64,000 nucleotides of DNA, taken from NCBI GenBank assembly GCA_022702545.1, contig JAHRBC010000003.1:3658001-3722000 (forward strand), written 5' to 3'. Origin of the DNA: Phycomyces nitens (taxonomy: Eukaryota; Mucoromycota; Mucoromycetes; Mucorales; Phycomycetaceae). The position numbers were made by a program, and so were the translations under genes. The notes beneath the pieces were generated by a model. The model did no database searches, had not been told where the DNA came from, and saw only the letters and a list, made by a program, of their open reading frames with translations. Below are positions 3,621-61,318 of this stretch, in pieces (position 1 is the stretch's first letter; every line of letters starts with the position of its first letter).

Positions 3621-6600
3621 ATGTCAGGCCACATTACACTGATTAATGACGAGTTCCTAAGACATGCGAATACCATTGAGCAATTGTCCAACCGACTCCA
3701 GGCAGATCTCGATTTGTTTGATCTTAGTCCTTATGAAATGAAAGATTGTGATTCCTATGTCAAGGATCGAGGTATTCATCAGCTCATTTGGCTCATCATC
3801 ACTTATTCTAAATAAAAAAAAAACTTTAGTAACCCTCTTCCAGTTTCTGCGGGCCTCTCGATTCGATCCACAGATAGCTCATGAGCAGCTACTTGATACA
3901 GTGCGCTGGAGGATAAACATGTCCATTGGAAAACTATCGTATCATCACTTTATGGCTTATTTCGACACACCATGCATAGTATTCGATAAGCTAGACAAGA
4001 TGGGTCGGCCAGTAATCGTGCTCTATCCACGCAACTTCCCTTTCTTGACCGGGCCAACAGATGCCTCGAAGCCTTCGATAGGATCTCTTACGTGTCTCTT
4101 GATGGAGGTCACACGTCAATATATGCACGATCTCTCTCAATTGGATCAAGAAGGCAGCCACCTATCCAGACTAATATCCCAATGTATTATCTTGGTAGAC
4201 ATGTCCGAAGCCCCCTTTCTTCCCGTGGTAAGCAAATCAATTATAACCACACGTTGGACTCAAGCAGACGATAGAATGCCGAATTGATCATGTCTATCAG
4301 AGAGATACTCGATAAACGCTTTCCAGGATCTATTCAATCTGTGCATGTACTTAATTTCGCATGGGCCTATCAAGGGTTATGGCAGATGGTTAAGTTTCTG
4401 CTGAGCGATAATCTAAAGCATATAATCAGATTCAATTCTGAAGAGCTACAGAGAATAATAGCCGAGGATGATTTGGAAAGAAGTAAGGGCAGACAAACAA
4501 ACAGATTGTTATATTCATCCGATTCGACTAAAGTATTATGTACTCAATAGTCTTGGGAAGTAGCGAAAACAATCCGTGGATCAATAAGAGTGAAGAAATA
4601 TGGAAGAAATATGGCTACCATCCTGACATTGTTTCTCCAAAAAAGAAGTCAAGGATAAGAATTCGAGACCTCTTTCCAGACCCATCACCCTCATTTGACC
4701 TCATACCCACATCATCTATAGAAACTATGCCAGCACAAAAAGACGATTCAGAACATTTCAAAGAGTCGAATGATGAGCAGAGTCTCCAGGAGACCAGCAT
4801 TGAAAACAACAAGTCTCAATTTACGTCGATTGTACAAAGTGAATTGATGAGTCAGGATAGCAATATTAGCCTGGCGTCCGAGGCGTATGCAGCTTCTGCA
4901 GGACATGAAGAACAAAACAAGAGTCTAATCCGGTTGGCTGGAACACAAGAAGACGATTTAGAAACCCTGCAGCAACCGAAACCAGACGACCAGGAATTAG
5001 ACATACGAGATGAGTCAAAACAAATAATCCAAGATGTATTGGCAGACACCAGCAAAGAAGAGTACATTTCATCTCTATCTGAAACAGATACACTAGAAAT
5101 CCCCAAGATGGTACCCGAATTGACCATGTTTGTCCCTGAACTCTCAGTAAAAGAAGATGAACATCTAGACCAGACATTAAGCAGAGCATGCGTACCTGTA
5201 CAGACTACTTCCTCGGTCAAAACTGAACAGGATAAAGAAGAATTGCTTGATACTTTGGATGATTTATATTGTGCTGACACTGGAGATAAATGTTTAGAGC
5301 CCACTCTAAAACAAAACGATAAATGTATGGCCATTGACCAATACACTTTGGACGAAATTGCCGTTGCTCGACTTGTTTGCGAAAATGCACCATCCACAGA
5401 TACTCACAATGAAAACGATTGTGATGATAAAAGTGTGTTTAGAGTACAGCCCACAGAAGACATGAATACCACAGAGACCTCGTTACTTTTGTATAAAGAG
5501 CCAGCCTCGCCTGAAAAAGTAGAGGAGATGGACCAAAGCATGTTTTCAGAATCAACATACAACGACGAGTCAGCTTTGGTGGACTTCTTGCTCGATTCAG
5601 ACGTTGTAAAAGTTGCCGATTTTCCGAGTAGTTTTCGATCAGAAGCTTGTATTGCGAACATTGGTATAGAAACTGACCCCTCTCAACTAGAATCACCAAC
5701 ACAGCACAATGAAGTTATACCATATACGCCACGCATCAGCACTAACGAAACAACCGAACCTTCTGATATCAAAACCGTATTATCGTGCCGACAATTGAAT
5801 GAACTCATCCTTTTTGAAAATCAAGGCCCAGAGAACATTATAGTCATCGAATCCGTTGGTTCCTGTGATATCAATATCGACGAAAGGAATATTAGCCAAT
5901 TGAGCAATACACCAATTGACCTTTCAGTCGTAGCCAAAGACAATACTGGGCAAAACAATTCTCCTAAACTTAACTCTACAGAGATCGAAAACGAGTGGAA
6001 TACTATACCCGATTTTTCAAATGTAGAAAAAATCCAAAGGTCTATACAACAGGATATTGCAGGATTTCTTACGGACATAGAGTTTTCCTCAGCTGGCCTG
6101 TTGAGCTATTCGAGTGCAAATATTTTGAATGTAAAACAGCACATGGAAGATGCCGAAAATATGCTATCCAGTGAAGATGAAAAAGAAAACAACCCATCTG
6201 TCCAGCAATTGCTACTTCTTGACGATAAAAATGGCGAATTTTACGAGGACACTGATGCTTTCATACAGAAAAATTATCACGATGAATATGAGGGAGCCGA
6301 TATTATATTCGATGCAATCAAATTTTTACCTGTCTATACCGACAATAATGGACCACCGGAGCAAGCCAGAGATGTTCACAAGAAAGATATCGGCAAAGAA
6401 ACTCCCGATTGTTACGTCTTTACAGAGAAAATCGATAAAGTCGAAACAGAGGACTCTTCATACCTAGAATCTGCTGTCAAAGTTCTTGGCGACATAATTG
6501 CTAATATAGATGACATGTTGGCTGAAGAGCAAGGTGCGATAGACCCACCAAATGATAAGAGCCCCGAGACTACAATGGTTCCAAAAGACAAAATATTGTT

Positions 6601-9574
6601 CACTTTGGAGTCCATAGAAGAAGAGGAAGCAGATGTAAACGATGAACTTGTTGAAAAGCTAGAATATGAATATTTTTCGACTGTTGAGAAGAACGCAAAT
6701 GATCCTCCGATTATTTCAGTGACTGTAGCCGAAAACCTTTGCTCAGAAAAGGCTTGCGCAGACAATGCAAAAGATATTTTGATCTCAAAAGACGTCGATG
6801 GAGTATCAGATACAACTACCAGCAGCCTATCTAATGATGACTTTGACGATGTCCCCAACCCTCATAAAAGTGATTTGATCGACGTTGAACCCGGTTCCAG
6901 AGAAACTGAGCAAGATATCAACTCTGAATCTAATCACTGCGAACTAGCCATGGCTTTATCTAATATATCTAATTTCTTGGAAATATTTACAGAAGAAACC
7001 GTTGGTAAATCTGATGATATATTTTCTAAAGAAGTCTGCGCCACAGACGATTTATCACAGAGCAACGAACCCAGTTTTGCAGAATCAACCAAAGACGAAT
7101 CTTGTTATAATACCGGACCTTTTGACCGAGAAATGTATTCTAATGAAGTCGATACTCTGCTGAATATTGTATACGAGAATCCATGTACCGTCGCCATATG
7201 CCAAGAGATCTACGATGAACATATGGAATCAAACAGCTATAAAGATGAGACCGATGCTTTGATGAATATTTTCTATGAAGTTCAACCCACAATCAAGGAA
7301 AATGGCTCTGCTCATTCAAAATCCAGCGGCTCAGAAAGCTACACCGATGAAATTGGTTTAATGATGAACATCACATATGATGCTCCAGAGCTGATTAAAG
7401 TAGATAAGTCTGTTCCACTCGGGTGCTATCTGGGGAATAGCTGTTCTGATAAAAGTGTTGATATAATGGAAATTGACCGTCATACTCCATTACCGCTTAA
7501 AGAAGACCAAAGCCGTTTCTCTGAGCTTCCTTGTCCAGATACTTTTGCTGACGAGATCAATCTTGTGATGAAAATTTCGTACGATATTCAAGACATCGCA
7601 GAAAAAAGACGCCTTTCCTATTCCTCGTCCATTGATACAGACTCTTATAAAGCTGAAGCTGCAGTTATGAGGAAGATTGTATATAATACTACTGTACTCA
7701 GAAAGAACAGACGAAATGTACCCTCTAATCAGTATGGATTCAATACTTACAACGACGAAATTAATGTTATGATGAGAATTATGTATGATTTCCAAACGCC
7801 AGTAAAAGAAACCTCATCACCAACCATTGCTTCTTCACGTAAAAATATCAAGAAAGAAGGCGAAAATATACTACCCGTGGCTAAAAGAAAACCAAGCCTT
7901 GTAGAAAAGGCAGTACAAACTTCAATCCAAACATTTGAATTGGATACTAGTAAAGAACGACACGGTACAAGTCCTGTAGAAAGAGATCAGCAAGACAATT
8001 CGGATAAGAATTTGGCACCCAAAAAAATTACGAGTATTAACCTGGATACATATGCTGATGAGGTTCATATTCTCGAGTCAATCAAATACGATATTCATGA
8101 CCTTTGTGAGAATAATACCGTAAACCCAAAGGATATGGATGAAGAATTCTACATCGATAGCAATGATGCCAATGAAAACATTTGCAAGGACATGGATACA
8201 AGCGAGGCGGCGACAATTGATATGGTCAGCTTGTGTGGACTAAAGGCTTGCGCAAAAGAAACATCTTTCAAAGACACTGTGGAGACTCCAGATGAATTTA
8301 GTAACAAATCTATTGGAATTGTTCAAAATCCTAGCACAAAGACACGTGTAGAAGAGTTGACTATAACAGTGGATACCATAAAAGAAGAAACTCTAAACTG
8401 CATTTCCAAAGGGACCGCTTCTGAAGATGATGAATTATCAAAGAAATCAATTCGTGAGAAAAGATTAACAACGTCGAATATTATTGTGGATATTTTGGTG
8501 GACTCTGATAACGAAGCAACTACAAGGGAACCCATAACTCCAATAACCGAGATCTACGACAAGCTCAATATTATAAAAACGTTTCCAGCTCCAGACACCA
8601 GCCCAAGGATTTTTTCATCAACCATACAAGACATTTGTGAGCCTGTCTCTTCAGAAGATTGTGCTTCTAAAGACAAAGACGCTTTGTACAGCAAAGATAT
8701 TGGTGGTAAAAATCCTGTGTATACAAAAACAGACCTCGAATATGCTGATCAGCCATCAAGTTGCCCATCAATAACAAGGGAGAATGAAAGGGAAAATACG
8801 TCTGTCAACCAGAATACTCTGCCACTTATCCTATCAACGGGACCACTGCCTTTACCATCTCCACAGCAATCTCCTCGTATAACCCCAACAGAATTACAAA
8901 GTGACACAACAAAAGTAGCACATGTATCAATGGAATTTGGGCATGACAATAGTGATACTTCAAGTTGTATGGCAATAATTGTCGGGCAAATTGCTGCAGG
9001 AACAGAAGCAGGCATCACCAATCATTCTTCACGCTTAAATTTATCAAAGCCAAGGCTGTGTGGTCCTCTTTGGCCTCTTGTACACAAGCCTATGCCATTT
9101 ACCACGTGGCTTGGAATTTACACAGGATTAACAGTATACAAATCATTCATACACACACACAACAGACCAACCGAAATGCAGAAAGCCTGCAAATGCATGC
9201 GCCGGATATCCTCAAGTAACAGAATTTCTCAAGGCCCGGATTCTACCTCTAGATTCCAATCCCATAGCCTACCAGCTCGTTTCCGCGGCATATCCTTCTT
9301 TCAAGACTACCTTCCTTCAGCGTTTACGTGGCCCTATAAAAGCTCTCTATTAGATGTTACTAAACAAGTTGTTCGAGCGACATATCCAAGATACAGTCTA
9401 CTTTACTGGATAGTACTCTATCTCTGTATACGAGGGCCAGTCGAGATTGGTCTTTCTAGACTCATATCACAATCAGTCGAATCCCCCAAAAAAGTCGCTA
9501 CTATAACACTAAGTATTGCAGCTACCATTACTGCGATCACTAGTTCATCCCTCGCCTATTTTGCTAATTCATGA
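3621..9574 (+). CDS. Giant CRAL-TRIO (Sec14-like) protein with repeat-bearing disordered tail and C-terminal membrane anchor
   Basis: Four exons: 3621-3771, 3830-4227, 4275-4482 and 4551-9574, giving about 1,926 residues. The first 250 residues hold a CRAL-TRIO N-terminal helix ('FQFLRASRFDP') and a Sec14-like lipid-binding domain ('MGRPVIVLYPRNF', 'HVLNFAWAYQGLWQMVKFLL'). The remaining 1,670 residues, in one exon, are acidic, Ser/Thr/Asp/Glu-rich and predicted disordered. They carry seven copies of a motif of type Y-x-D-E-x(4)-M-x-I-x-Y-D between about residues 1112 and 1430. The C-terminus has two hydrophobic stretches (about 1865-1885 and 1902-1924), the last ending four residues from the C-terminus, which looks like a tail anchor. 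A lipid-transfer head tethered to a membrane by a long flexible arm is inference. Sec14 homologues are usually 300-700 residues. The exon junctions were chosen because each restores the Sec14 frame exactly. Confidence 0.8.
7132..8094 (+). repeat. Seven degenerate copies of a Y-x-D-E...M-x-I-x-Y-D protein motif
   Basis: Within the long exon of the CRAL-TRIO gene, seven short motifs recur at irregular spacing of about 30-100 codons. Their starts lie near 7135, 7237, 7339, 7540, 7645, 7747 and 8047. Examples: YSNEVDTLLNIVYE, YKDETDALMNIFYE, YTDEIGLMMNITYD, FADEINLVMKISYD, YNDEINVMMRIMYD, YADEVHILESIKYD. Each combines an aromatic, an acidic pair, a run of hydrophobics with helical spacing, and a closing Tyr-Asp/Glu. 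The DNA between copies is not repetitive, so the motif is kept at protein level. One weaker variant (YNDESALVDFLLDSD) occurs near 5558. Function is unknown; a multivalent peptide-binding array is the simplest reading. Confidence 0.75.
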
Positions 9575-19697: not shown

Positions 19698-22600
19698 ATG
19701 TTAAGAATTTCCCGACAGAAAGTCTCTTGTCCAACAGCCTTTCGGAGACCTTGTTCGTTTCCTGCTCGCCGAGCGACTACACTGTCATCCAGCGTAACCA
19801 GAAATCGTGTATATGGAAATGTCAGTCGAGTAGGAGTATCTACAGTCTTGCGACAATTTCCCGAAGCTGCCATCTATAGTCTTGCCAAAAGGTTCTATGC
19901 TGGTATGTAGCAAAGATATACTGTAGTACCGCAATACGACCTTGCCTCGTAATATATTGCTGATAATCAGAATACATTGGTCAATTGAATTAAACACAGG
20001 AGGAACACCTGGAGGAATGCGGATGAACCCAGCCCAAGAACAAGAACAGCAATCGGCTCTAGAGCTCTATGTAAGTAAACCGCTTTAAATGCGTATATTG
20101 TCTCGGCTTATTAATGCATATCTGTCTTACAGGGCCTTGATCTGACCGCCCTGGCAGAAACGGGCAAGCTGGGTAAGTCAAGATATTCTGGATAGTTCTG
20201 AAGCGGACTTTTACAAATGTCTGTGTCGGCATTTGTCTGAGTGAGACTAACCAGTAGATGTTTTAATTTATCTGTAGACCCTGTTATTGGCAGAGACGAA
20301 GAAATCAGACGAACTCTTGAAGGTAAGGAAACAAGCTTGAAGTATAGACCCAACTAACCGAACATTTTAGTGTAAGATAAACCTCTTGGCTTATAACTCT
20401 TACTTACCCTGATATCAGGCTGGCACGACGAACAAAGAACAATCCGGTGCTGATTGGTGAAGCAGGGTAAGCCAAGTCTAAAGGTCCAAAAGTAACCAAT
20501 TAAGTAACCTTTTGATAGTGTTGGCAAGACTGCTATTGCAGAGGTAGGGTTTTCTATCCATTGTTTCGACCACTTTACTGACCTTCTCTGATGATAGGGT
20601 CTTGCCCAACGTATTGTAGCAAACGAAGTTCCTGAATCTATCCAGGGAAGACGTGTCATTACTCTTGACCTTGGTGTAAGTGTTTATCTATGCTTGACTG
20701 TGCATGTGTCTGATTGAAATGCTTTCTATCTATGTAGAGCCTTGTGGCTGGAGCCAAGTATCGGTAAGTGTATCATATCTTTGAAAGGATGGATTGTTGA
20801 CACAAGAAAACATTAGCGGAGAATTCGAAGATCGTCTCAAGGCCGTTCTTAAAGAAGTGACTGAAGCAAATGGAAAGATTATTCTTTTCATTGACGAGAT
20901 TCACAACTTGCTTGGTCTTGGAAAATCAGAGGGTACGATGGATGCCGGTAACCTGCTCAAGCCAGCACTTGCCAGAGGCCAATTGCGGTGCGTGGGTGCG
21001 ACTACCATCGATGAGTATAGAAAATACATTATGAAGGATCCAGCATTGGCAAGACGTTTCCAACAAGTTCTTGTGGAGGAGCCAACGGTTCAGGATACAA
21101 TTTCAATTCTAAGAGGTCTCAAGGAGCGCTATGAGATCCACCATGGTGTAAGAATTTCTGATTCCGCTCTGGTGTCTGCTGCCATCAACTCTCATCGGTA
21201 TATTACTGAACGGTTCCTACCCGATAAAGCCATTGATCTTGTGGACGAAGCATGCTCCAAGCTAAGACTCCAGCAAGAGAGCAAGCCCGAAGTTCTTGAG
21301 AACCTTGATCGTCAGATTATGACTACTCAGATCGAACTCGAATCTCTCCGAAAGGAATCTGATGCAGCATCCATAGAGCGAAGAAATAAGCTTCAATCCG
21401 AACTGGAAGAAAAGCAGAAAGAGAGCCAGAGATTGTCGTCCATCTGGAACGAAGAGCGTCAAAAGCTGGAAGGTATCCAGAAGATCAAGGAAGATCTTGA
21501 GAAAGCCCGTGTAGAGCTTGACTTGGCTCAAAGATCGGGCAACTTCCAGAAAGCTTCAGAGTTACGTTATGGTACGATTCCCACTCTTGAAAAGAAGCTT
21601 CCAAAAGAGAATCTCGATGAAGACAATCCGGATACATTTATCCACGAGAGAGTTACGGCTGATGACATTGCCCGCGTTGTGGCTCGCATGACAGGCATTC
21701 CTGTCCGGAATCTGATGAAGGGCGAGAGAGAGAAACTCTTGCACATGGAAGATGTGTTGGAAGAGCGTGTTGTTGGTCAAAGCGAAGCCATATCCGCTGT
21801 ATCAGATGCCGTACGACTCAGTAGAGCAGGTCTTCAGAACCCTTCGAGACCAATTGCCTCTTTCATGTTCCTTGGCCCAACTGGTGTCGGAAAGACCGAA
21901 CTTTGCAAGACTATTGCTGAATTCTTGTTCGATACAGAGAATGCTATTGTGCGAATTGATATGTCAGAATACATGGAGAAGTTTTCTGTTAGTCGCCTGA
22001 TTGGCTCTCCTCCTGGTTATGTGGGCCACGAGGAAGGTGGTGAGCTTACAGAGGCTGTAAGAAGACGTCCATATGCGGTTGTGCTGCTTGATGAGATGGA
22101 AAAGGCTCACAGAGATGGTATGATTTTAGACTCCAAATATCACAACTGATACTAACATGTGGTTTACCAGTGTCAAATATCCTACTTCAAGTCTTGGATG
22201 ATGGTATTCTTACCGACAGTAAGTATAGTACTATAAGGAGTGTACTACTGCTAATAACACTCTATAGGCAAGGGACAAAAGATTGATTTCAAGAATACGA
22301 TTATTATCATGACATCTAATTTGGGTGCCGAGGCCTTGGTAAGCGATGCATCCACTGACACCACTGTCAGTACAAGGGCAAGAAGTAGTGTTATGGATGC
22401 TGTGCGTCATAATTTTGCTCCCGAATTTATTAACCGTATCGATGAAATGGTAAGGATGCTTGAATATGAAGATTGCTTGAGACTAAACACTTTGTCAAAA
22501 CAAAGGTCATCTTTAACCGACTCACCAAACCAGCCCTTCGAGACATTGTGGATGTCAGACTAAAGGAAGTAGAAGAGCGTACCAAGGATCGAAACATCAA

Positions 22601-22901
22601 GTTGGATGTGGATATGGCAGCACGAGATTGGTTAGGTGACCATGGCTATGATCCTGCATATGGTGCTCGTCCTTTGAACCGTTTGATTCAAAAGTCTCTT
22701 CTCAACCCACTTGCACATCTTCTTATTGATGGTGGTGTGCGTACTGGCGAGACAGCAAAGGTGACAGTGAGCCAGACTGAGTCGGGTGAGCCTCAATTGG
22801 ATGTTCAGCGTAACCACCCTCCTGGAGAACTGAATCAAAACGAGGAAAAGAACCTAAAAGACAAGCTAGCACCTGTAGGCGATGAAGAGTACGATGAATA
22901 A
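19698..22901 (+). CDS. HSP78: Mitochondrial ClpB-type disaggregase Hsp78
   Basis: AAA+ chaperone that pulls aggregated proteins apart in the mitochondrial matrix together with mtHsp70. About 821 residues (yeast Hsp78 has 811); like Hsp78 it lacks the ClpB N-domain. An Arg/Ser-rich presequence without acidic residues precedes '[18 protein letters not shown]'. NBD1: Walker A GEAGVGKT, pore loop 'GAKYRGEFEDR', Walker B '[11 protein letters not shown]'. A coiled M domain follows. NBD2: Walker [10 protein letters not shown], pore loop '[13 protein letters not shown]', Walker B '[11 protein letters not shown]'. Exons: 19698-19902, 20000-20070, 20133-20172, 20278-20322, 20371 (one base), 20419-20466, 20519-20543, 20598-20675, 20738-20763, 20817-22117, 22171-22218, 22268-22449, 22506-22901. 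The 5' half is split into very small exons; the rest is mostly one large exon. The single-base exon is required to give the universal '[11 protein letters not shown]' sequence. Confidence 0.95.
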
Positions 22902-57296: not shown

Positions 57297-60200
57297 ATGC
57301 TCTCTGCATCTACCGTATCCTCCGCCTCATCTAGCGCATTCAGCTCCTCATCCGCAACCACTCCTTCATCTCAATATTCAATGGACTCGGCCAAGAAATC
57401 TACCGGCAATCCTTTAACGGACCTGATAGAAGCCGAAAAATCCTATCTAGAGACCCTAAAGATCATTGACATGGTAAAGAACAGACGTTTATCAACTGTT
57501 TTCATGTCTTATTTATCATCATAATTAAATCGTATCAGCAAATCGCACCCATATGGATGAAGCAACCCTCTCCTGCTCCTGATTTCTATGATCTCTTGGG
57601 ATATGTTCATGACATGTACCGAGCAAACAAGCGGTTCTGTTCAGTAAGTACACACATATATATGTGTGATGTACAGTTCGATTGATTTGTTCTTGTAGAA
57701 ATTAGTGAAGATTGCTGGCAATCCACAAGTCTTTAGGGAACTCGGCGATGTGTTGATGCAATGGGTAAATTTATAGATCATGAGCAGAGAGCATACCTAA
57801 CCCAACCTAACCTAACCAATTCCAGGTGGAAGATATGGAGGTTCCTTATGCCAATTTCTCAAGAAGCTTTATCAATGACCTGAACAAACGACAAGACATC
57901 CAGGAAAATCCACAGATCCGTCAATTGTTGAATGTAAGACGATGCCAGTCAATCTCATGAAACTCATCTCTCTGGTCATAGAATCTGTCAGCCAATGTTC
58001 CTTACGAAATCACACTCGAATCACTTTTCAATGCACCAAACCAACAACTAAAATACTACAAAATGCTCTATAGTGTATGTCCTGTGGATTAGAATCCATT
58101 TGTACCAAACCAACAACTAAAAGCAGGAAACAATTATTACAGAGACTATTGGATGGAACCGATCCTGGTAGAGCTGACCACAAACTCTTGCTCCAGGCAA
58201 ACAAACGAATCGATATGATAATGATCATGGCTCAACGAACCATGCCACGAAATATCTCTCCTTTACCTCCTCGGGGAAGAAATGAAGCCACAGAACAACA
58301 GCCACGTGGTATAAAGGGAACTGCCCCTTTACCCCAGATCAATACTGGATTTCAAGAGCACCACAATAATTCAGCAGGCATTTCTGGCTTAGAGCAGCAG
58401 ATCGACAGTCTTAGGGTAGCAGATATATTCAGTGGAATCAGAGTCGTAAGTCTTTCTTTTTTTTTCTTTTTTGGATTTCACTCACTCATTCTTTATTTAT
58501 TTACGCCTCTCAAGAAATATCAATTGCGCTTAAATCCAGTCTCAAAGATTGTCTTGAGAGACAATTTCGTACTTCTTCCAGACCAGAATGGCGGTGCTAC
58601 TGCAAGAGTTCATTTGATATTGACAAACGAGGTCCTAATTGTCTGTCGTGAACAGCCAGGTCTCAAGCCGTACTCTCTAATTTACCCTCCACTCCGCAAT
58701 CACGACATTCAAGTTAAATCTGCATCAATCGAACGTGAACTCGTAGGCGAATACATCATCCAGTTCTCAATTCTCGGTAAAAAGAATCTGACCATGAGGG
58801 CCGACGAGAAAGAAACCAGGAACATCTGGCTGGGCCTCGAGCCAAACGTGTCGAGTTCGCTGACCCTTACAGCAAGACCTCTTATATCAACCGTCCAAAA
58901 ATACCATTCCCAGCCCGGCAACAAAAATACCACAGCCATGTTGACCACTCCTACAGATCAAGGATCGAGAGACAGAGGTGCAGTTTCGCCTCTGGATGAT
59001 GACGACAAAAATACTCCTCAGTTTGATGAAAAGACCTATGAACCACCAAAAATTATTCATACAGCACTTCCTAGCCGCCAAAACGACGATTCTGATGATT
59101 CCCCAGATTCAGAAGACCATGAGTTCAAAAGCATGCTGCTGTCCGGTCGATCTCCAAATGTACCAGTAAATCAGCCAAAGCCTGAAAATAAGTTTGAAGA
59201 CATCATTCCTCGTACGGTGATGATGTTTCCTCAGGTCCCAGGGCACAGTCCAGCGAGTGCTGTAGGAAAGCTTCCTTCCCTTTCATCGGGCTCCCCGGCT
59301 GCAGAGCCAGACCGGATTGCTGTAAAAGAACCCACAAAATCAACCACGGTCAAAATGACGTTTATTCCTCCTGTTGCGGTTCAAAAGATGACAATCGTGA
59401 GCACAGAACCTGGTGCACTATCAGTAGAAACCAGAAACCTCGGTATATCTTCTGATTTGGGCTCTTTGGCTTTGGATGATTCACCAAAGGCTGAAAATCC
59501 AAATGGTTCAGAAGCGGTCCAAAGTTCATCGCCATCTCAGCAGCTACGTTCCAAGGTATCTGAAGAACGTCCAGCGATACCAAATATCGAAAGCATGAAC
59601 AGATCAGGATCACCACACCCAGTTTCACCGCGTCCTATCGAGGTACGCCAAGGAGTCTCTCCTGTGGCCATGCAAGCAGTTACTCAAGCGAACAACTATA
59701 TCTCTGCGGAAGCATCATCACCTCAGACACAAAATGATCCTAAACCCCAAGCCATGCCTACAAATAAGCAGCCTTTTGATGATCGTGAACGAGTAAAGCC
59801 ACCGCCACTCATTCAGACAGACCCTCGACTGGCAGATTCCCGCAGAGAAAATGGGCCTAATAACTCTTCTGCACCCACCACCCCAAACTCTACCTCCCCA
59901 CTTGGAAAGGGTCCTTCTATTCAACAGAATCAGAATATCACACCAAGAGGATCCTCTAGAAATATACCTGGAGATGACCAGCAAGTGTATAACCAGCAGC
60001 AACCTCGTCAGCAGATTCCTCCTCAACAATACCAGAACGGCCCTCGTTCCCAAATCCCACCTCAACAATACCAGCAGCAACCTCGACAGCAGATTCCTCC
60101 TCAACAATACCAGCAGCCTCTCCAACATCATCAAGGATATCCTAATGGATATGGTCGTCCCCTTGGCCCTGGACAACCCATGGCATCTCAGTCATCGCCT

Positions 60201-61318
60201 TATAGAGGACCTGGCCCTCAGCAGTCGTCAAACATGCTATCCCCTCGCATTGGGCCAGCATACGGGGGTCCTCAGAAAATGGCACCCTCTCCAAACAGCT
60301 CGCGCACCCCCTCTCCTCAAAGATCAATTAGTGGGCATCCTCATCCTGGTCTTAATACACCTTCTCCATCTCCAAGCAGATCTTTTGGAACCGCTTCTCC
60401 CTCTCCACATCTTCAGCCAGGACAACCCTACTCACCCGACGATTCTAGCTCTCCTCCTCATAGCGTAAGTGCCTTGGTGTGTTTGAATGGTCTATATATT
60501 AATCCATTGTACATTTGTACTATTAGCCCAATCCATTAGGAAGTCAAGCAAACGGTATCAAGCAAGTAATCTACAGTAGCAGTGAATGCGAGGTGTTCCA
60601 TTGGAAAGATAAGACATGGTACGCAGCAGAAGGAAGGTGTCTTCTTCAGATCAAGTTGACACACTCCAACCGTGCCTGTGTTGCTGTACAAATCCAAACT
60701 ACTGGACATCTATACCTCAACGCCTGGATCTTGCCAACCACAGTTATTCGGCAGCCATCAGAAACAGATGTCAGCATCTCAGTATTTATGGGAAACCGCA
60801 AGGAGAACTATCTTGTCCACTTTCATAATCCAAACGATGCCCTCTCATTTCTTCATATACTGCAGCAAATGCATTATGAGTCTTGTCAAGCCAGGCCATA
60901 TCAGCATCCTATTCTGCCCCGGTCAACCTCTATTGGAAACCAACAGAATATAACGGACAACAAGCCAGCTGAGAATGTCCCACAGAGTCTCCAGCCTGTT
61001 ATGCAGTTTAAATGTAAACTATTCTTGCAAAATGAGACATCGAGTTGGAGTCCATTTGGATCGGTATCTATGCGTATATCTCAACAGATACCGAGCAAGA
61101 AAATGCATATCTATATCGAGAATGAAAAAAACAAACTCGTTAGTTCGATTGTACGTAGTGGAAATGTGGAAAGGGTCGGCAACAAAAAGGTTACCTTTTT
61201 GCTAAAGAATGAGCAAGAAAGAACAAGCCTGGTGTATATGATTCAGCTAAAAGATGAAAGTACTGCCTCAAAGACATACGATTATCTTCGAGTGAAGAAT
61301 AGTGAAGCCGAGTGGTAA
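57297..61318 (+). CDS. DH-PH domain protein (RhoGEF-like) with C-terminal PH-fold domains
   Basis: Eight exons: 57297-57473, 57539-57643, 57699-57764, 57826-57933, 57982-58074, 58143-58445, 58515-60464 and 60527-61318, about 1,197 residues. After a Ser-rich start, a DH domain begins with 'PLTDLIEAEKSYLETLKIID' (about 40-230), followed by a PH domain (about 285-390: 'VLRDNFVLLPDQ', 'VHLILTNEVLIVCRE'). About 540 disordered residues follow, rich in Ser, Pro and Gln. The C-terminus (about 945-1195) has two PH-fold-like units: 'KTWYAAEGRCLLQIKLTHSN' and 'SSWSPFGSVSMRI', the latter reminiscent of RanBP1/EVH1 domains. Likely a scaffold or exchange factor for a Rho GTPase. The Cdc24 gene in the same window is a separate RhoGEF. 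Exchange activity and GTPase partner are not predictable from this sequence. Confidence 0.82.
60008..60125 (+). repeat. Tandem QIPPQQYQ-coding repeat
   Basis: Inside the large exon of the DH-PH gene, three copies of a roughly 36-42 base unit encode QIPPQQYQ separated by short Gln/Arg/Pro spacers. At DNA level the units are nearly identical (AGATTCCTCCTCAACAATAC), so this is a recent tandem expansion in the disordered region. Confidence 0.85.

Follow-up and report, generated by a model that had tools for sequence, protein, structure and literature searches.

A candidate one-nucleotide exon in HSP78 of Phycomyces nitens, probably old in its fungal lineage, and a second one in eL24 of the same genome

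One-nucleotide exons are a known kind of exon, and they have been published for the plant genes APC11 (PMC4674806) and VPS55 (PMC8831610) and, in February 2026, for the Fusarium P450 gene CYP621A, which its authors call the first case for a fungal gene (PMC12940212). These three, two from plants and one from Fusarium, are the nuclear one-nucleotide exon families that we found in print; the sequence-only reading from which this analysis started had rightly named APC11 as an example of a very rare phenomenon, but APC11 is not the sole known case. A single-base exon in placozoan cox1 is said to be mitochondrial and not spliceosomal. Searches of the open-licence full-text literature, judged by title and opening of the abstract, turned up no paper describing an exon of one base for HSP78, for eL24 or for Mucoromycota. 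What is added here is the wide and probably ancient spread of such an exon, together with a second gene, eL24, one copy of which spells out the predicted spliced product.

The candidate described here lies in HSP78 of Phycomyces nitens, and it shows several likenesses to the published cases. As in APC11 and VPS55, a single nucleotide stands between AG and GT, is required by the reading frame and is missed or garbled in annotations, and the arrangement would have been conserved for a long time with intron loss in some lineages (PMC4674806, PMC8831610). APC11 and VPS55 are, however, other genes in another kingdom; in Arabidopsis, 333 nt precede the APC11 exon within a stretch of 422 nt assigned as intronic, whereas the HSP78 introns measure 48 and 47 nt (PMC4674806), and the plant cases were shown by cDNA, that of APC11 also by mutants, while the HSP78 case is known from DNA and protein models (PMC4674806, PMC8831610). 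CYP621A is closer in being fungal, in its phase conflict at a conserved motif, in the mis-modelling of nearly all relatives and in having an intronless homologue as a length marker; it differs in its exon base, a G (AGGGT), in being reported from Fusarium species and in its support by 18 RNA reads, as against a T known from sequence in HSP78, whose signal has a far wider taxonomic spread (PMC12940212). Like [D1,2] stwintrons, the locus has two U2 introns that would need consecutive removal at nearly one position, but in a stwintron the inner intron splits the splice signal of the outer one, whereas the twin introns of HSP78 are both complete and one base is kept between them (PMC9024468, PMC12403724). 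With the placozoan mitochondrial cox1 exon the candidate shares its length of one base (PMC5436844).

The window, that is the whole stretch of 64,000 nucleotides that was analysed, carries at 19698..22901 on the forward strand a gene of 13 coding exons, which form a single open frame of 821 codons (821 aa) whose product matches TIGR03346 and has relatives named HSP78, the mitochondrial ClpB-type disaggregase. The match to TIGR03346, the ClpB equivalog of NCBIfam, reaches 1141.7 bits where NCBI's curated threshold is 1232.1, so the protein does not qualify as a ClpB equivalog; the match begins at profile position 140, which means that the N-terminal domain is missing, presumably as in Hsp78. 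It is the combination of a ClpB-type body without this domain and closest relatives named Hsp78 (best 120 of 1449 matches) that identifies the gene. Within these same 120, models of HSP78 from Phycomyces blakesleeanus come nearest, and identity over aligned residues is 97.3% to P0001 and 94.6% to P0003, which probably indicates a Phycomyces near to that strain yet distinct from it. The names of the relatives suggest that the product is mitochondrial.

Some further observations concern the gene and its surroundings. Exon 7 (20519-20543) has just 25 nt and exon 9 just 26 nt; in P. blakesleeanus the residues of exon 7 are missing from model P0003, which has EAGTGIILLTHRVLCQ in their place, which on paper breaks the Walker A motif. 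Downstream, a neighbour at 24093-25270 matches the additional C-terminal part of another P. blakesleeanus model, P0002, and six HSP78 models including P0002 (among the best 120 of 1449 matches) carry PF01263, which we take to be aldose 1-epimerase; gene callers thus seem to fuse two adjoining genes. Elsewhere in the window, two long frames run from stop to stop at 4532-9571 (1680 aa) and 58074-60536 (821 aa), and a Pfam search at E 0.001 returned no match for either.

The site in question (20278-20466, forward strand) is laid out as GAA G / GTAAGG...ACTAAC...TTTTAG / T / GTAAGA...TATCAG / G CTG GCA. Exon 4 (20278..20322) ends in phase 1 with CTT GAA G, and is followed by the 48-nt intron 4 (20323..20370; GTAAGG...TTTTAG), by the candidate exon 5 (20371..20371), a single T that would be the middle base of a Val codon split as G/T/G, by the 47-nt intron 5 (20372..20418; GTAAGA...TATCAG) and by exon 6 (20419..20466), whose first base would complete this codon (G CTG GCA CGA CGA). 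The T thus lies directly between a canonical 3' AG and a 5' GT, and each intron has its own donor and acceptor. At 20353..20358 intron 4 contains ACTAAC, presumably its branch-site consensus, with the A at 20357 standing 13 bases ahead of the last base of the intron; the branch site of intron 5, judged by eye, looks weak (TTATAAC or CTTAC), which counts against a one-base exon. In its bases, its coordinates, its intron lengths and its branch site the sequence-only reading described the locus accurately. It also called lengths of 48 and 47 nt normal for this gene, a point on which it has to be corrected: these are the two shortest of the 12 introns, the other ten ranging from 49 to 105 nt.

All splice paths with one or two GT/GC-AG introns of at least 25 nt were enumerated, with donors in 20290-20418 and acceptors in 20320-20439. 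Eight of them are in frame and free of stops, and a single one, GTAAGG..TTTTAG/T/GTAAGA..TATCAG, retains the ungapped E-V-L-A-R-R of Hsp78, so that the frame and the conserved protein together call for exactly the T at 20371, as had been proposed. Aligned to the window, P. blakesleeanus P0003 closes exon 4 with TLE (residue 120) and opens exon 6 with LARR (residue 122), leaving V121 as the only residue that the two exons do not encode. Stops are reached by direct joining of exons 4 and 6, by read-through from exon 4 (as the sequence-only reading had noted), by retention of intron 5 and by retention of the whole stretch. The direct join is out of frame and its product contains the misframed WHDEQRTIR. 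A transcript that keeps the T would read CTTGAAGTGCTGGCACGA across the junction, and would contain GAAGTGCTGGCA, which an insertion of seven residues would not give; the direct join would yield CTTGAAGGCTGGCA.

The two introns could also be read as a [D1,2] stwintron, with intron 4 lying inside the donor of a larger, outer intron that would start at 20322 (G^...^TGTAAG). Removal of intron 4 does form a GTGTAA donor two bases upstream of GTAAGA, and the product would read CTTGAAGCTGGCA / GAAGCTGGCA. This product is out of frame, however, with a stop 13 residues after TLE and thus no functional frame, and GTAAGA is closer than GTGTAA to the donors of the gene. We regard the stwintron as an extremely improbable account of the locus; splicing of this kind could at most supply a minor non-productive isoform.

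The one path among those enumerated that stays in frame with a single intron uses the donor at 20342, the same alternative that had been named beforehand, and removes 77 nt (20342..20418; GTATAG...TATCAG, forward strand). The protein would then exchange V for GKETSLK and be six residues longer (E-GKETSLK-L), and the transcript would read CTTGAAGGTAAGGAAACAAGCTTGAAGCTGGCA. Models of some relatives, such as P0019 and P0067, resemble such a choice, but the inserts of these relatives vary in length and sequence, as artefacts would. The donor GTATAG, moreover, has no G at +5, unlike the donors of all the gene's ten other introns, and the TTTTAG/T/GTAAGA and ACTAAC of the site would be left as a coincidence. 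The insertion would also fall where no gap occurs in two ClpB alignments, the ones shown out of 45 matched PDB sequences, in which the first ATPase domain runs ungapped across the site, nor in both paralogues of the same genome or in 47/47 other named fungal proteins that reach the site. The paralogues, which are HSP104-like, are open through the region without an intron and align ungapped to HSP78, one of them reading VIRVLCRRTKNN / IRRVIRVLCRRTKNN at the site. The 77-nt intron appears very unlikely. P0014, P0057 and P0073, open reading frames on short contigs of other fungi that are apparently intron-free and cDNA-like, read V there, an indirect sign that the mature transcript may contain the base. 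Both HSP104-like genes have long open frames, of 935 aa (L002, C1:2693114) and 933 aa (L003, C5:6343187), and their identity to HSP78 in the first ATPase domain is 73% and 71%.

Published protein models of relatives were compared for the site of the T at 20371. They were drawn from the best 120 of 1449 matches in one search and the best 120 of 1172 in another, which gave 181 distinct proteins. Among the models that reach the site, V or I with the length of the family is found in 16/51 from Mucoromycotina, 0/18 from Glomeromycota and 0/1 from Calcarisporiella, as against 18/18 from Mortierellomycota, 4/4 from Zoopagomycota and chytrids and 25/25 from named Ascomycota. In these listed matches, grouped by hand from their names and including models of related species that are not independent, 54/70 models of Mucoromycotina, Glomeromycota and Calcarisporiella therefore depart from the family at the site, compared with 0/47 of the other named fungi. 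The 54 comprise nine with G for V and 45 that are broken. Six named proteins do not reach the site (three from Mucoromycotina and one each from Glomeromycota, Basidiobolus and Ascomycota), and the 58 proteins without an organism name divide into 40 exact, one broken and 17 that do not reach it. The 16 exact Mucoromycotina models, which read V, weigh against the one-base exon and are compatible with correct annotation or with intron loss.

The other junctions of the gene serve as a control. For P0001-P0080, named and unnamed, an indel is seen at the one-base-exon site in 21/51 covered proteins; the corresponding figures for junctions 2, 3, 6, 7 and 8 are 1/44, 0/44, 3/56, 0/57 and 1/63, and for junctions 9, 10, 11 and 12 they are 1/63, 1/75, 0/73 and 0/67. 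Junction 1 has indels in 14/28 covered proteins and was set aside as a control because it lies in the transit-peptide region, which varies naturally. For P0081-P0120 there are just three indels at any junction, and all three lie at the one-base-exon site, in three Entrophospora models (Glomeromycota).

The manner in which the models fail is informative as well. Among the 45 broken named models, 36 run on past TLE/TIQ, and every one of them has G, A, E, V or D immediately afterwards, residues whose codons start with G, as they would after an exon ending in phase 1 with G. LARR or LSRR is kept in 29/45, preceded in 21 of the 29 by R or S, which corresponds to an AG/N acceptor in phase 2; the remaining eight, with V or T in two models each and I, N, E and Y in one each, speak against a uniform pattern. 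A phase-1 donor and a phase-2 acceptor leave room for exactly one base, and it is to a phase-1 donor and a mostly phase-2 acceptor that the proteins of the relatives, in place of their DNA, point. P. blakesleeanus P0002 (EGNKLYIYVNIRLARR) carries both signs. In three models, P0029, P0059 and P0065, exon 6 seems to be read with the frame off by one base, and the WHVEQKIIL of P0029 resembles the misframed peptide that direct joining gives in the window. In P0008 and P0027, which are broken, V precedes LARR, and this suggests a single intron with an AG/TG acceptor, the second intron having been lost. Against the general pattern, Calcarisporiella P0131 retains Q-V-S-H-M, a peptide that suggests a phase-0 donor (CAA/GTAAGT) and hence a different length of the middle exon in this fungus.

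These failures bear on another rival reading, namely that a base is missing from exon 4 or exon 6 in the assembly and that a single intron of 96 nt suffices. A deletion of one base would indeed give the same frame problem, and 96 nt is within the range of 49-105 nt of the gene. However, the same one-base phase conflict runs through the models of many other species, whose errors point to the phases described above and so make a sequencing error unlikely; the three P. blakesleeanus models disagree exactly at the site (P0001 EGL, P0002 EGNKLYIYVNIRL, P0003 EVL), and the composite motif of the site, in its strict form, is rare in the genome. An assembly error is accordingly given little more than a one in a hundred standing in our judgement, that is, it is most improbable. 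The nine models with G for V, eight from Mucoromycotina and one from Rhizophagus, read E/Q-G-L, and could be taken to mean that exons 4 and 6 are joined directly and that -1 ribosomal frameshifting restores the frame to give E-G-L. Frameshifting is not needed for this, since the same residue would arise if the G of the last AG were counted as exon, which is how we explain these models, and we accord it a vanishingly small probability.

The rarity of the motif was judged across the genome (49 Mb, 11 contigs) by searches on both strands, whose counts may be lower bounds. The strict motif, CTAAC-N(3-20)-YAG-N-GTAAG, occurs at least 13 times, compared with at least 96 times for the reversed control, and the HSP78 site is one of the 13; a looser form (CTRAY, YAG, N, GTRDG) occurs in the window five times on the forward strand, the HSP78 site among them, and 0 times on the reverse strand. 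Another of the 13 strict matches lies in a gene for ribosomal protein eL24. None of the other 11, viewed by eye, stood out as a one-base exon, and several of them, such as L007, L012 and L014, look by eye like ordinary exon ends that contain CTAAC by chance.

The eL24 match (L006, C1:1950651) leads to a second candidate one-nucleotide exon, an A, between introns of 74 and 95 nt at C1:1950598-1950767 (L006:1448-1617), with the structure GACAGCAG / GTAAAT...CATTAG (74 nt) / A / GTAAGC...TTCTAG (95 nt) / AGCTTCCGT. In frame here are two paths with a single intron and four with two introns (the latter with GT donors and a middle exon of up to 12 nt), and the one with the one-base exon yields D-S-R-S-F-R-F at family length; both one-intron paths shorten the protein. 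A second copy (L020, C5:7432252-7432978) has introns of 88 and 183 nt around CCAG/A/GTACGT with the same frame need, and its introns, compared by eye, are mostly unlike those of the C1 copy apart from the first eight bases. The third copy (L019, C9:3460617-3461072) has no intron at the site and reads GACAGCAG-A-AGCTTC (GACAGC AGA AGC TTC CGT), which is exactly the predicted spliced sequence; a copy without introns there carries the additional base in its DNA, and this also argues against frameshifting. Published eL24 models in the best 120 of 272 matches are broken at the junction in 45/64 from Mucoromycotina, as against 0/41 from other named fungi (four Glomeromycota/Calcarisporiella, eight Mortierellomycota and 29 others) and 1/15 without an organism name. 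In nine of the broken models the frame of the upstream exon seems to be shifted by one base. No model named Phycomyces is among these 120.

The enumeration of splice paths, the failures of the relatives' models and the parallel in eL24 all support the interpretation put forward by the sequence-only reading, and we give a probability of roughly 0.93 that the T at 20371 is a constitutive one-nucleotide exon of HSP78. Two ordinary-looking short U2-type introns would flank the T, the spliceosome would remove them one after the other, and the T would be kept as the middle base of a conserved Val codon in the first ATPase domain of Hsp78. Introns 4 and 5 should not be recognisable together, since the exonic positions -3/-2 of donor 5 (AGT/GTAAGA), which fall inside the U1 footprint, coincide with the AG of intron 4; from the sequence and general knowledge of splicing, sequential removal would follow. 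Since exon 4 also ends in AG, taking out intron 4 would not alter the bases ahead of donor 5 and either order would work, although we lean towards removal of intron 4 first, given its better branch site. In eL24, too, the donor would keep the same preceding bases before and after removal of the upstream intron.

The one-base-exon arrangement is probably old in this fungal lineage, and one of the twin introns appears to have been lost in some species. It is somewhat better than an even chance that ancient one-nucleotide exons recur in Mucoromycota, that of HSP78 dating from the common ancestor of Mucoromycotina and Glomeromycota and that of eL24 from the ancestor of Mucoromycotina, that loss of a twin intron leads to a shift of one base, and that more such exons are hidden. 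One-nucleotide exons test the recognition of splice sites where nothing can bind an exon so short, and HSP78 and eL24 would add two housekeeping genes to the known cases, the introns of the former being very short, and would extend these cases over a very broad taxonomic range. The eL24 trio, with two copies that carry the exon and one that is intron-free there and spells out the product, is a natural experiment, and dozens of published HSP78 and eL24 models of the group, which diverge from their families at a base whose position is known, are open to checking. If ancient one-nucleotide exons do recur in this group, then wherever one of the twin introns disappeared, the other would come to lie shifted by exactly one base, which would be a route to one-base 'intron sliding' distinct from stwintrons, and further one-nucleotide exons would lie behind the broken models of conserved genes.
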